29,684 bases of DNA from a virus. The translations under genes were made by a program, and so were the position numbers. Position 1 is the first letter of the stretch. Each line of letters begins with the position of its first letter. The stretch covers positions 1 through 29,684 of IMG/VR virus record IMGVR_UViG_3300034104_003388. One strand, given 5' to 3'. Below are positions 3,801 through 20,248 of the stretch, in pieces. Under the pieces are notes generated by a model, which worked only from the letters and a program-made list of their open reading frames with translations, did not search any database and was not told where the DNA came from.

Positions 3801-4748
3801 TTATTTAATGTTTAAAAATGTTCCTGATCCACCCGCAACTGTTGTTGGTAAAACCCCATTCCAGGATTGTGCTTTCAAATATTCAACATAAAGAGGTGTT
3901 ATTTCTTTTTGTTTTAACTTCATTGCAAGGGCCAAAGCTTGTGCGTCAATTATAACTTTAGCGGAGTCTCCACGGGCAATCGCAATTTTTTCTTGAGCTT
4001 CAGCTTCAGCAACCAGTTTACGTTGTGTTGCGGCTTGTGCTTCCTGGACTGCTTTTGTTTTACCTTCAATTGCTTGTTGTAAAGATTTTGGTGGTATGAT
4101 ATTAGTTCTTAACTGTGATACTTCAAACCATTTAGATAATCTTTTATTACACTCGGCAACAATTGCTGCTTCAAATTCTTCTCGTTTATTAAAGATTGCA
4201 TCTACCTCCCACTTATTAGCTACGTCATTCACTGAACTAACAATCGCATTCATTAACCATCCTTGTTCAATTTGTTTAATATCCAATCTCAAGTTCTCAA
4301 ACATATTACCAATTGCTGTTGGTTTAAGTGAATAGTTGAATGACGGTTTAATTGTTGCCGCAAATCCACCTTTTGTAATCACAGTTTGATCCTTGTATTC
4401 AATATGTTGTTGGAATGTTGGAAACTCTAACATCTGTTCTGTCCAGGTATTATACATTACCCAACCAGTTTTATATTCATAACTTGACACACCTCTTTTG
4501 TCTCCAGTCAAATTAACTTTGATTCCAACGTGTCCTGCGTCAACTCTTTCAAGTGCGAATGGTTGGATACTAGAAATTATAATTCCTAATACAAAGATAC
4601 CAATTGGTTTGAGTATCCACATAGTATTAAACATTTTTTTACTATCACCCCATCTGTCTGTTCCTATTACATACATTCGGTCTCTTGTTGTGAATGCCGT
4701 AAATCCGGCAATTACCAATCCTAAAATAAAAATTAAAGTACTAATCAT
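3801..4748 (-). CDS. SPFH/Band 7 (prohibitin-type) membrane protein
   Basis: 315 residues from ATG 4748. A TTG at 4775 in frame is less likely because ATG 4748 overlaps the upstream stop in the usual way. Two hydrophobic segments (2-20 and 44-62) are followed by the Band 7 fold (about 65-220: VDAGHVGIKVNL, KDQTVITKGGF), then an Ala/Glu/Gln-rich coiled coil (about 210-285: KAVQEAQAATQRKLVAEAEA), the standard SPFH layout. The family forms membrane-bound oligomeric rings that organise membrane domains or regulate membrane proteases. It lies between two small membrane proteins in one operon (4932-3548), suggesting a membrane complex made during infection. Its role in a phage is unknown. Confidence 0.88.
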   Translation of the reverse strand: MISTLIFILGLVIAGFTAFTTRDRMYVIGTDRWGDSKKMFNTMWILKPIGIFVLGIIISSIQPFALERVDAGHVGIKVNLTGDKRGVSSYEYKTGWVMYNTWTEQMLEFPTFQQHIEYKDQTVITKGGFAATIKPSFNYSLKPTAIGNMFENLRLDIKQIEQGWLMNAIVSSVNDVANKWEVDAIFNKREEFEAAIVAECNKRLSKWFEVSQLRTNIIPPKSLQQAIEGKTKAVQEAQAATQRKLVAEAEAQEKIAIARGDSAKVIIDAQALALAMKLKQKEITPLYVEYLKAQSWNGVLPTTVAGGSGTFLNIK

Positions 4749-4932
4749 TTTGTTTTTTGTTTTTAAATAATTCAATTGTTTCGTTTATTACATATATTAG
4801 GATCCCTACAACACCAACGAAACTTAACAGTTGGAGGAATCCGTTTACTTCTCTACTCACCACATACTCACCAAAGAGTGTGTTTAACCAAATAAACAAC
4901 ACCCATAGCGAAACTACTCTGAAATACTTCAT
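4741..4932 (-). CDS. Small two-helix membrane protein (63 aa)
   Basis: ATG 4932 is chosen. The in-frame TTG at 4947 is part of the -7 promoter box and too far upstream to be useful. Two hydrophobic segments (about 6-20, VSLWVLFIWLNTLFG, and 31-50, LLSFVGVVGILIYVIN) are followed by a Lys/Asn tail. It overlaps the SPFH start by 8 bases. Function unknown; probable partner of the SPFH protein. Confidence 0.6.
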   Translation of the reverse strand: MKYFRVVSLWVLFIWLNTLFGEYVVSREVNGFLQLLSFVGVVGILIYVINETIELFKNKKQND

Positions 4933-9496: not shown

Positions 9497-10045
9497 TTAA
9501 TCTAATAAAAATTTTAATATTTTTTCTCTAATACCGGATTGTTTTATTCCTTCGTTGTATGGTCGTTTACAGTGAACAAAGTTTTCAAGTCCCCAACCAT
9601 CTCGTTTTGACATATCAAGATCATCAACAGTAACCCAATGTGTTACTTCAGGGTGTTCTTTCAACCAATTTAATATTTCAATATGTCGTTCATACTCTGT
9701 TTTATTAAAGTGTGGTAAAACAAAATCATCAGGTAATTTACCTTCACGAAATAAAACACTACAAAATGGTGTGATATCAATTGGTGGTTTAATTCCGCGA
9801 GTAACAAACATTTCTTTTATTTGTTCTAATGTTCCGTGTTTTTTCCAATCGGACGAAATAACTAATTCACAACCAGTTTTTTCTATGATTTCATTTAATA
9901 TTTTAACAGCTTTTTCATTGAAGTTGTCCATTCGTATATCCATAGGTGTTTCGGGATTTGAGTCAAACCCTTTTTTCTTGTACCGTCCTCCCCATTCAGA
10001 AGATAGACAAATAACTCCGTCGTGATCCAAAAATAATATTTTCAT
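9497..10045 (-). CDS. HAD phosphatase of the RNA-repair (Swiss Army Knife) type
   Basis: 182 residues. Motif I FLDHDGVI (D7, D9), motif II VISSDWKKH (S64/S65), and an acidic motif VTVDDLDM near 138-145. The pattern FLDxDGV ... ISSxW is typical of the HAD family that occurs in RNA-repair fusion proteins and as free-standing phage proteins. It may remove phosphates from nucleic-acid ends; the window also encodes an RNA ligase (19112-20248) and a P-loop kinase (26518-26922). Start ATG 10045, five bases after a TATATTTG box. Confidence 0.75.
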   Translation of the reverse strand: MKILFLDHDGVICLSSEWGGRYKKKGFDSNPETPMDIRMDNFNEKAVKILNEIIEKTGCELVISSDWKKHGTLEQIKEMFVTRGIKPPIDITPFCSVLFREGKLPDDFVLPHFNKTEYERHIEILNWLKEHPEVTHWVTVDDLDMSKRDGWGLENFVHCKRPYNEGIKQSGIREKILKFLLD

Positions 10046-10374: not shown

Positions 10375-10569
10375 TAAAAAACCCCAACCATAACGATTGG
10401 GGTGGGTGGAAGTCAATGAATCAACTTTTATATATAATGAGTTTTGATATTTGACTTAAAATACTGTTGAGTGTTTCAATTTTGAATTTTTGAATACAAA
10501 TCATAATCTACCATCGTCTCAAGAATTTTGAAGTTGTATGTTAAAAGTATAATTCACTAACGTTCCACC
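10375..10569 (-). ncRNA. Candidate structured RNA ending in an intrinsic terminator
   Basis: This 190-base gap has no gene. In the minus-strand transcript GGTGGAA (10569-10563) pairs with TTCCACC (10411-10405). After one bulged C, ten further pairs join GTTAGTGAAT (10561-10552) to ATTCATTGAC (10421-10412), two of them G-U. After a small internal loop, six more join CTTTTA (10547-10542) to TAAAAG (10430-10425). The two G-U pairs would be A-C mismatches on the plus strand, so the fold fits the transcribed strand. The closing stem abuts the terminator at 10403-10381. About 110 bases lie inside the rod. No known RNA family could be assigned; a tRNA-like reading fails because no T-arm is present. 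It could be an independent RNA or the 3' end of the dnaK-DIP1984 message. Confidence 0.55.
10381..10403 (-). terminator. Intrinsic terminator after dnaK/DIP1984 unit
   Basis: Minus-strand hairpin with stem ACCCCAA/TTGGGGT (10403-10397 with 10387-10381), 9-base loop, followed by TTTTT and then AATATG. The ATG belongs to the 10070-10372 gene, so the T-tract is almost its entire leader. Confidence 0.82.
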
Positions 10570-10576
10570 ATTTAGT

Positions 10577-11020
10577 TTATTCCTCAATCACTGTTGTTGC
10601 GTTAAAGTGATCAAGTTCGTCCTGGATTTGGTCAATTCGGTTTTCCAAAAACTTAATCTCATTATCTCTTTCTACAACACTTATTTCAGAATGTTTAATA
10701 AGTGGGGATTCAGGTCTACGAGAATAATAATCAACAGCAGCACCGTTAGTACAATCAAGTCCTTTCATTTTTGAAACTAACGATTTTAATTCAGATAAAA
10801 GAAAGATTTTATCAAAAACTTCAAAATTAGCCTTTTGAATTTTAGTTTTGATGTAAGTTAATTCATCAACTTTTGTATAAATTTGGCTTAAAGTTTCTTT
10901 AGCCGAGTAATCTCTTGTATTACCCTCAATTATTGAATTGTTACTTTGTAACCTAACTGTTAGTTCATTTAACTCCTGGACTAATTTGTTTTTTAATTTT
11001 AAAGCTTGTTTTAGTGTCAT
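10577..11020 (-). CDS. DIP1984-family coiled-coil protein (147 aa)
   Basis: The N-terminus MTLKQALKLKNKLVQELNEL and the C-terminus RDNEIKFLENRIDQIQDELDHFNATT match the pattern of the DIP1984 (septicolysin-like) family: a helical hairpin starting with a LxEAL-type helix and ending in a coiled coil with 'NxTT'. The middle has RPESPLIKHSEISVV before the last helix, as in that family. Biochemical function is not established. It follows dnaK by 50 bases and is probably on the same message, which continues into the structured RNA and terminator. Confidence 0.65.
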   Translation of the reverse strand: MTLKQALKLKNKLVQELNELTVRLQSNNSIIEGNTRDYSAKETLSQIYTKVDELTYIKTKIQKANFEVFDKIFLLSELKSLVSKMKGLDCTNGAAVDYYSRRPESPLIKHSEISVVERDNEIKFLENRIDQIQDELDHFNATTVIEE

Positions 11021-11070: not shown

Positions 11071-12924
11071 TTACAAAACTTCTTCAAATTCTACATCAGA
11101 AAGATTGTCACCATCATTTTCTGTTGTCTGTGAATATAAATTTTGGGTAACTTCCTGGAATTTATTATTCAACTTATCAATGTTGGGTTGAATTTCATCC
11201 ATATTTTTACTTTCGTATGAAGTTTTTAAATTTGAGATTAACTCATTTAATTCATTTTTTTGTTCTTCGGTTAGTTTATCTTCCAAATCTTTCATTGACT
11301 TTTCAGATTGGAAAACTGTTGAGTCGGCTAAATTTAAAAGTTCGGCTTCTTCTTTCAATTTTTTATCTGATTCGGCATTTGCTTCAGCTTCTTGTCTCAT
11401 TCTTTCAATTTCTTCTTGTGAAAGACCAGAAGATGATTCAATTCTAATTGTTTGTTGTTTGTTTGTTCCTTTGTCAAGAGCTGACACGTTAATAATTCCG
11501 TTTGCGTCAATATCAAAGGTTACTTCAATTTGTGGTATACCTCTCATTGATGGTGGAATTCCGTCTAAATGGAATCTACCAATCGTTTTATTATCTCTAG
11601 CCATTGCACGTTCTCCCTGAAGTACGTGGATTTCAACTGATGGTTGATTGTCAACTGCCGTTGAGAATACTTGAGATTTTTTTGTTGGGATTGTTGTGTT
11701 TGCATCAATTAGTTTTGTAAATACTCCACCCATTGTTTCAATACCTAATGAAAGTGGTGTTACATCTAATAACAATACATCATTAACATCTCCAGCTAAA
11801 ACACCTCCTTGAATTGCGGCACCAAGAGCAACAACCTCATCTGGATTAACACCTTTAGATGGTTCTTTACCGAAGAACTTTTTTACGGCCTCTTGAATTG
11901 CAGGGATTCTTGTTGTACCACCAACTAAAATTATCTCATCCACATCATTTATTGTCATTTTTGCATTTTTCAATGCAGACTTACAAGGATCAATTGTTCT
12001 ATCAACAAGTGGTTGAATTAATTGTTCAAATTTAGATTTTGTAAGATTTCTAACCAAGTGTTTTGGAATACCATCAACTGGCATAAGATATGGTAAATTA
12101 ATTTCAGTAGATTGTGTTGATGATAGTTCAATTTTTGCTTTTTCTGCCGCTTCTTTTAGTCTTTGGAGTGCCATAGGGTCTTTAGCAACGTCAATGCCTT
12201 GTTCCTCTTTAAATTCACTAGCTAACCAGTCAATAATAACTTGGTCAAAATCATCACCGCCTAAATGTGTGTCTCCATCAGTTGATAAAACTTCAAAAAC
12301 ACCATCACCTAATTCAAGGATAGATACATCGTGAGTACCACCACCACAGTCAAATACAACAATTGTCATATCTTTTTGTTTTTTATCTAGACCATAAGCT
12401 AGAGCGGCCGCTGTAGGTTCGTTAATAATTCGCAAAACATTTAAACCAGCAATTTGACCTGCTTCTTTTGTTGCTTGTCTTTGAGAATCATTAAAGTACG
12501 CAGGTACTGTAATCACAGCATCTGTTACAGTCTCACCTAAATAATCTTCTGCTGTTTGTCTCATTTTTTGTAAAACCATAGCAGAAATTTCTTGAGGTGA
12601 AAAATCTTTTCCTTCAATTTCAACTTTAGTTGAGTTATTAGTTCCCTTTTTAACTTTGTAAGGTACTTTACCGGTTTCACTCTTTGTTTCATCATAGGAT
12701 GACCCCATAAATCTTTTAATTGAGTAAACCGTTTTTTCTGGATTAGTTACCGACTGTCTTTTAGCCGGATCTCCAATTTTTCTTTCACCATCTTTGATGA
12801 AAGCAACAACGGACGGTGTTGTTCTTTTTCCTTCATTGTTGGTAATAACCACAGGTTCTTTACCTTCCATCACTGCGACACAAGAGTTTGTTGTGCCTAA
12901 ATCAATTCCAATTACTTTTCCCAT
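11071..12924 (-). CDS. dnaK: Full-length DnaK (Hsp70) chaperone
   Basis: 617 residues, normal for DnaK. ATPase domain: [17 protein letters not shown] (5-21), [12 protein letters not shown] (167-178), the phosphate-2 loop [10 protein letters not shown] (192-201), and [10 protein letters not shown]. The interdomain linker [14 protein letters not shown] is intact. The substrate domain is complete ([22 protein letters not shown]), followed by the helical lid and a C-terminal [12 protein letters not shown] tail of the kind needed for co-chaperone docking. Oddity: the usual DLGGGTFDVS reads [10 protein letters not shown] (C193, H198). No dnaJ or grpE is visible here, so host co-chaperones would be needed. 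Close resemblance to Bacteroidetes DnaK suggests capture from a host. A palindrome and a TGGCACG box lie upstream (12959-13024). Confidence 0.96.
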
Positions 12925-19110: not shown

Positions 19111-19125
19111 ATTAATGGGAGTCAC
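19098..19125 (-). terminator. Intrinsic terminator of RNA ligase gene
   Basis: Stem GTGACTC/GAGTCAC (19125-19119 with 19104-19098), 14-base loop holding the stop codon of the ligase gene, followed by at least seven T. It overlaps the next promoter. Confidence 0.75.
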
Positions 19126-20248
19126 CTACGTTATTTTTTTCACCATATATCAAGTAGTCAGGGTTGATTACTTTTGATACTTTTCTACGGTCACCAGTAA
19201 CAGATTTAACAACAACACCTTCGTGTGGTATTTTGGTACCTTCTATGTTGTTATTAAACACAAAAGTATCTTGTATTTCTTTAACCCATATACCCTGGTA
19301 TAACAATTCAACCTGTGGTAATTGTAAACAATCAAAATGTACGGTTTCATTTATGTATGGTTGATACACTCCATCAACTTGGACATCAAAACCGGCAAAT
19401 TTAACATCAGTCAACCCATATTCGTAGTTTTTTTGTATACCGGCTCCGTATATCTCACCATATATTACAAAACCTTCGGTTAAATCAAGTGGCTCATAAG
19501 TATCTTTTACGTGATCCCACAACTTACCTCTTATATCGTATTGGTTTGCCACGGTTTTCCATACATCGGTGTCGTAGAATCCTTGAGAGTCGGATCCCTT
19601 TTCTACGTTATGAGAACCATAAACATATTCAAATGCTGCCCATTTATTTCCAAAGAACATTTTAACACGGTCCAATAAAGAAAGTTTTTTCTTTCTTACG
19701 ATTCCATATCTGGCATTTGTTCCGTGTAACTTACGAGTTATAACAACCTCATCTTCTTCATTGAACATATCTGGTACATTCTTCTGGTTAGGAAACTTGT
19801 AGTAAACGTGGAAGTTAGGATTTTGGTGGTATTTTATTTTTCTACCTCCAGATTGTAAAGTTATGGTTTTAACTGGTGGTTCGTATTTGTATATATTTAA
19901 TACTCCCATCATATCTTGTCCATCAAGAAAACCATTTTGAGCTGAAAATGATTTAAAGACATAATTTAAAGGTATTAAAAGACATTCAGAATAAACTCCA
20001 CGAAGTTTTACGGTTCTAACTCTTTGTCCTTTACGAAGGTAATTAGTAACACCCATATCATCAGATAATTCTTTTGGTATTACAGCATCAGTAGTCGCAA
20101 CAACAACCTTATCACCAACTTGATATTCACCTTTTTTGGTTATGGCGTTCCATCCACCAACAGTAACTAATTCTATGTTGTCAGCACCTGGTATTTCAGA
20201 CACAGAACCTATTATTCCTACGTATGCTACGCTATTTTGATTTTCCAT
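19112..20248 (-). CDS. RNA ligase with N-terminal OB domain (Rnl5/DraRnl-like)
   Basis: 378 residues. The N-terminal part (about 1-125: SEIPGADNIELVTVGGWNAI, GDKVVVATTDAVIP) resembles a tRNA-binding/OB fold. The nucleotidyltransferase domain has motif I RKLHGTNAR (AMP-accepting K173), motif III VIYGEIYG (261-268), motif IV HEGVVVKS (342-349) and motif V SKVINPDYLI (K359). An OB domain ahead of the ligase core matches the Deinococcus-type RNA ligase rather than T4 Rnl1/Rnl2. It would seal nicks or ends in RNA, and may counter host RNA cleavage. It is last in a unit with a coiled-coil protein and a membrane peptide; its stop codon is inside the terminator loop. Confidence 0.88.
   Translation of the reverse strand: MENQNSVAYVGIIGSVSEIPGADNIELVTVGGWNAITKKGEYQVGDKVVVATTDAVIPKELSDDMGVTNYLRKGQRVRTVKLRGVYSECLLIPLNYVFKSFSAQNGFLDGQDMMGVLNIYKYEPPVKTITLQSGGRKIKYHQNPNFHVYYKFPNQKNVPDMFNEEDEVVITRKLHGTNARYGIVRKKKLSLLDRVKMFFGNKWAAFEYVYGSHNVEKGSDSQGFYDTDVWKTVANQYDIRGKLWDHVKDTYEPLDLTEGFVIYGEIYGAGIQKNYEYGLTDVKFAGFDVQVDGVYQPYINETVHFDCLQLPQVELLYQGIWVKEIQDTFVFNNNIEGTKIPHEGVVVKSVTGDRRKVSKVINPDYLIYGEKNNVGDSH

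Follow-up and report, generated by a model that had tools for sequence, protein, structure and literature searches.

The window (the whole stretch of DNA analysed, a 29.7-kb IMG/VR phage contig) contains a gap on its coding (minus) strand that encodes a real small structured RNA, absent from Rfam 15. The gene directly upstream (10577..11020, minus strand) specifies a 147-aa DUF6847/DIP1984-like protein, identified by Pfam, NCBIfam and AF2 fold, and is the constant upstream partner of the RNA, whose 5' start lies 7 nt past its stop codon. The preliminary description had placed the RNA downstream of dnaK (11071..12924, minus strand; PF00012, E 1e-261), which is not the adjoining gene; it is a neighbour in the window's lineage and has no general link with the RNA. 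The conserved body of the RNA occupies 10403..10572 (minus strand; covariance model R2, 77 bits, E 4e-12, the window being among the sequences from which R2 was built). No conserved ORF is found inside this RNA or its relatives.

The minus strand of the gap (10569-10375) folds with an MFE of -48.7 kcal/mol, whereas 200 dinucleotide-shuffled versions give -31.0 +/- 3.5 kcal/mol and none reaches the native value (z -5.1, 0/200); the plus strand of the same gap gives z -2.9. The ends of the RNA are joined in a closing rod of 7+12+7 pairs, with its 5' arm at 10542..10569 and its 3' arm at 10405..10430 (both minus strand), present in the MFE and centroid structures and covarying in relatives. (The preliminary description had located the rod correctly, at 10569-10542 with 10430-10405, but had counted 7 + 10 + 6 pairs.) The two arms by themselves form a duplex with z -8.7 (0/200 shuffles). 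An intrinsic terminator, consisting of the 9-bp GGGGUUGG hairpin and a T run (10403-10375, minus strand), adjoins the rod. The original reading of the gap as a rod-like, terminator-ended minus-strand RNA is thus strongly supported by the fold and by covariation in relatives. Its sense had been deduced from G-U pairs, and the stem cells of relatives agree, containing G-U 65 times and A-C 28 times, a count that leans towards the sense strand by virtue of having been made on an alignment fitted by an RNA model.

Between the arms lie a conserved GAUGGUAGAUUAUGAUUUG segment (10497..10515, minus strand), defined by the family alignment and corresponding to the family consensus GAU...GAU..UGAU, and, 3' to it, the conserved core of UYAAA units, UUCAAAAAUUCAAAA...GUCAAAUAUCAAAACUC (10439..10494, minus strand). 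The latter is the window's copy of a 7-nt-spaced array, and is less regular than in most relatives.

Phage relatives and the heptad core

The RNA is conserved in large Bacteroidota-type phages, and is always located directly behind a gene of the DIP1984 family. Scans of viral contigs by protein and DNA pattern yield ~40 distinct phage loci in which a closing stem and usually a terminator follow a DIP1984-like gene (the terminator is present after most of the relatives' RNAs and absent in the L144-L156 group). The sequences of the closing stems are unrelated among relatives, while their pairing is kept: for 22 of the 30 families, no more than 2 of 200 shuffles pair end to end as well as the native sequence, and most of the weakest families were added late, with only approximate boundaries. 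In a single lineage of 12 sequences, 93% of cells are paired vs 84% in shuffled alignments and 35-51% in slid controls, and double-sided changes number 27 vs 10. The corresponding values for an alignment of 52 sequences are 86% of cells paired vs 56% shuffled (33-47% in slid controls), and 355 cells with double-sided changes vs 113. The larger alignment was fitted to the structure, making the single-lineage covariation and the per-sequence duplex test the cleaner evidence. The preliminary description had looked to compensating stem changes in related phages for confirmation, and they are present. Plain MAFFT and RNAalifold analysis of the diverged RNAs does not show the stem, and structure is carried by the covariance model instead.

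Covariance model R1, built from one lineage only, locates the RNA at its expected place in other lineages, including the window, which is outside the R1 lineage (23 bits, E 0.1-0.2, at the same place as the R2 match). R2 finds the RNA in 52/52 phage DIP1984 loci tested, including held-out loci L109 (E 6e-8), L113 (7e-7), L136 (5e-5), L133 and L189 (3e-4 each), L158 and L160 (within 6e-8 to 3e-4), L184 (0.005) and L185 (0.18). Many of these loci were obtained by searching for the gene. (What the 52/52 count means operationally, then, is that the gene predicts the RNA; that the RNA predicts the gene rests on DNA-pattern scans and absence tests.) Every pattern-found RNA with enough flanking sequence lies behind a DIP1984-like gene, mostly with no dnaK, which is upstream in only some RNA-bearing contigs. 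The RNA is absent from 13 dnaK phages that lack DIP1984 (several of these are fragments), and is single-copy in each of 13 large RNA-bearing contigs searched in their entirety. Downstream genes fall into 19 unrelated clusters among 39 loci, and upstream genes into 18 clusters (37-39 loci). Because flanking genes are unrelated across lineages and dnaK phages without DIP1984 are also without the RNA, the conserved unit is the DIP1984-like gene together with the RNA. Linkage to dnaK is rejected, and with it the earlier suggestion of a chaperone-linked RNA. The variety of downstream genes and the usually intervening terminator also count against a cis-regulatory leader (riboswitch or thermometer).

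Sequence conservation is concentrated in the unpaired part of the RNA and is far lower in the stems; the unpaired part comprises the GAU..UGAU segment followed by 5-7 UYAAA units on a 7-nt grid, ending in UUAAAACUC. There are on average 5.3 UYAA[ACG] units per RNA vs 2.2 in shuffled sequence, and the spacing of neighbouring units is exactly 7 nt in 60 cases vs 2.3 expected. The 1.9 Mb of these phage loci contain 32 chains of at least 5 units in this 7-nt register, of which 31 belong to the RNA and the remaining one is antisense to one of those 31. The units vary between lineages with retention of the register, L185 using GUUAAAA. Scanning bacterial genomes for the core pattern turns up only chance or low-complexity heptads (the L246 match, for example, falls within a coding gene). 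Cyanobacterial and other intergenic regions (L221-L300) have tandem TCAAAAC/TTAAAACTC heptads that look like the phage core.

The DIP1984-like protein and RNAs at other DIP1984 loci

The 147-aa protein of the window scores below the curated family cut-offs, with 24.6 bits (E 2.7e-5) against the cut-off of 27 for Pfam PF20935, and 34.1 bits (E 2.6e-8) against the cut-off of 70 for NCBIfam NF038048. Its AF2 model, made from an alignment of 25 sequences (mean pLDDT 90), is helical, and Foldseek matches it to PDB 3kdq, DIP1984 of C. diphtheriae, with TM 0.77-0.79 and probability 1.00. The protein is a diverged DIP1984 relative by its fold. A search of the PDB by sequence gives no match, nor does PADLOC; a type III toxin-antitoxin RNA is not supported, on the latter ground and because the phage RNA lies downstream of the protein gene.

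In one lineage (L128, L190, L196), a small Cys-rich ORF (MSGDVEFDKCDFCHV...) is situated between the DIP1984 gene and the RNA. The window itself encodes an RNA ligase (19112-20248; PF09414 with a PHA02142 OB fold) and a HAD domain of the 'Swiss Army Knife' RNA-repair type (9497-10045), which suggests an RNA-repair module. Its unusual phage cargo includes a UvrC-like GIY-YIG/RNase H protein (1247-2515) and a Band 7/SPFH protein (3801-4775).

Vibrio phages, outside this phage group, provide further candidate loci. In Vp_R1, a 215-nt gap behind a 173-aa gene folds at z -3.3. We take this gene, from its length alone, to be the fold match A0A2H5BQ40, an assignment to which sequence profile comparison lends no support. 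Another Vp_R1 gap scores z -4.2, and Vp_R1 by itself is weak evidence. In its relative SJSY21, G-C replaces A-U in the closing stem, and PG07, whose protein is 31% identical, has an unrelated 16-bp closing stem at the same place (duplex z -6.5, 0/500). In PG07, a GOLLD RNA (L336, 248-665) lies just upstream of the DIP1984-fold gene, with tRNAs downstream.

Among cellular genomes, DUF6847 genes are found in 27/398 sampled from the phylum of a Lachnospiraceae genome and in 3/395 Bacteroidota. A conserved ~200-nt RNA directly follows the gene in nearly all of 24 Bacillota loci, and is also found behind one Bacteroidota gene (L313) and behind a DIP1984 gene on a cyanobacterial plasmid (the full set being L338-L359, L313 and L368). 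Its consensus is GGUAGCU...GGCGAGUAC...ACUACCNNGUACUGA...GUGAGGGUGGG, and the pairs of its consensus structure contain 67 double-sided changes vs 25 in shuffled alignments (maximum 39). Rfam 15 has no match for it. Model R3 of this cellular RNA recovers held-out cellular copies at E 6.6e-24 to 1e-5. Some copies contain GGTTCGATTCC, which resembles a tRNA T arm. In Bacteroidota L312 and L314, a variant closed element, GAATGGTC...GGCCATTC and then a T run, comes right after DIP1984 and also carries GGCGAGTAC and TTACTACC; R3 detects it only in L314, marginally (E 0.11).

The cellular and phage RNAs have in common their place directly after a DIP1984-family gene, their similar length and a conserved structure, but the cellular RNA has its own conserved sequence elements, and R3 finds no phage RNA at its place. 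Given this failure of R3, they may be analogues rather than homologues, or may neighbour these genes only by coincidence. In the open literature searched, DIP1984 and DUF6847 are not linked to any RNA, although the cellular RNA may be reported in subscription papers.

Comparison with known RNA systems

An Rfam 15 scan of the window and 12 relatives yields no RNA family other than tRNAs, none of them in the window gap, and permissive Rfam scans of the window RNA and that of L152 generate only sub-threshold noise. The 6S RNA covariance models do not match the window RNA. The preliminary description's alternative of an RNA-polymerase-linked, 6S-like RNA is not sustained by these scans, nor by the architecture of the RNA: its conserved part is an unpaired heptad array and there is no promoter-like bubble.

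Y RNAs are small RNAs whose two ends pair and enclose a large internal loop, and their bacterial copies are encoded beside their protein partner, Ro60 (Rsr). The phage RNA is comparable in its paired ends, its large internal loop and its adjoining protein gene; the difference is in the partner, which has the unrelated DIP1984 fold. The Ro60 system itself is rejected: the TROVE domain (PF05731) is found in 0/15 contigs, with a control genome positive. GOLLD and other ornate RNAs of phages or bacteria are likewise orphan structured RNAs and often phage-borne, but are much larger, and the phage RNA has no Rfam match to any of them.

A candidate RNA-protein complex

The favoured and most economical explanation is that the phage RNA forms a complex with a DIP1984-family protein, its 7-nt array loading several copies of the protein, a reading that we judge to have an even chance of being correct. 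A stable, non-coding RNA of ~165 nt would act with the protein encoded directly before it. The long covarying stem would lock the ends of the RNA, and the terminator would set a defined 3' end; one or two small hairpins would be followed by an exposed strand in which 5-7 UYAAA(A/C) units recur every 7 nt, and along which several copies of one protein would dock in register, one per heptad. The docking protein would most likely be the DIP1984-like helical protein, which is the first candidate binder because it is the constant genetic partner, and the resulting particle would be used during infection. That the protein and the RNA bind each other, the stoichiometry of binding and the biological role of the pair are what we infer from these loci. 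The net charge of the phage DIP1984-like protein is near zero (-3 to +2), which is unusual for an RNA binder and counts against binding.

The main rival is a trans-acting sink or sensor for a phage single-stranded DNA-binding protein of the gp32 type, loading cooperatively on the UYAAA heptads; we consider it unlikely. The footprint of gp32 is ~7 nt, which would suit the heptad spacing. Sixteen large contigs, all but one of them RNA-bearing, were searched for gp32 (PF08804), and 11 encode the protein. This reading leads the rivals because T4 gp32 uses UUAAA repeats, in its own mRNA (PMC535899). The T4 gene 32 operator has a similar architecture, a folded element and an unstructured stretch of more than 40 nt in which gp32 binds cooperatively to several UUAAA/UAAA repeats (PMC535899; PMC3014915); the phage RNA shares the several repeats in an unstructured stretch (mean 5.3 units), and most of these phages encode gp32. 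On the other hand, the T4 repeats are in the gene 32 leader, overlapping the start, whereas those of the phage RNA are inside a closed, free-standing RNA behind DIP1984, as UYAAA units in a strictly 7-nt register, with the gp32 genes elsewhere in the contigs. Moreover, 3 of the 13 phages without the RNA have gp32 too and no gp32 is found in some RNA-bearing ones, UUAA[AC] is not clearly enriched in the gp32 leaders of these phages (0-3 sites, the average over 1153 control leaders being 0.62 per 45 nt), and the tie to DIP1984 is left unexplained.

Next in rank, and also improbable, is a purely cis-acting 3'-end element of the DIP1984 mRNA, its rod and terminator serving to protect the message or to define where it ends. 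The RNA does begin at or just past the stop codon and finish in a terminator, and no conserved promoter is found directly upstream of it. Against this, the core is far better conserved than the stems, a strict 7-nt register is useless for end protection, a separate ORF intervenes between gene and RNA in L128 and L190, and other lineages lack the terminator.

We think it quite unlikely that the RNA is a decoy for a host RNA-binding factor, such as Rho, a Bacteroidota RRM-type protein or, in the manner of 6S RNA, RNA polymerase. A rigid stem that displays one single-strand motif several times is well suited to multivalent sequestration, and Rho prefers UC-type dinucleotides, which many units contain, but the C is not conserved (as the L185 units show), Rfam provides no 6S match, and the tie to DIP1984 is again unaccounted for. 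An antisense small RNA, with the conserved and mostly unpaired core base pairing with phage or host messages, is very improbable: units differ among lineages while the register is kept, and low-complexity A/U heptads are poor specific seeds.

Returning to the RNA-protein complex, its wider form is that DIP1984/DUF6847 proteins supply the protein component of a widespread RNA-protein system that has gone unrecognised, extending over at least three bacterial phyla and several phage lineages, with the phage heptad array loading multiple copies. We hold this to be evenly poised between true and false. With an uncatalogued RNA class whose covariation is very strong, whose register is strictly 7 nt and whose protein partner is constant, the function of the large orphan DIP1984 family, which has a solved structure and no assigned role, becomes directly testable. 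If cellular DIP1984 genes do work with their own RNA, a general RNA-protein machine would have been missed by annotation, and phages would carry a remodelled version of it.
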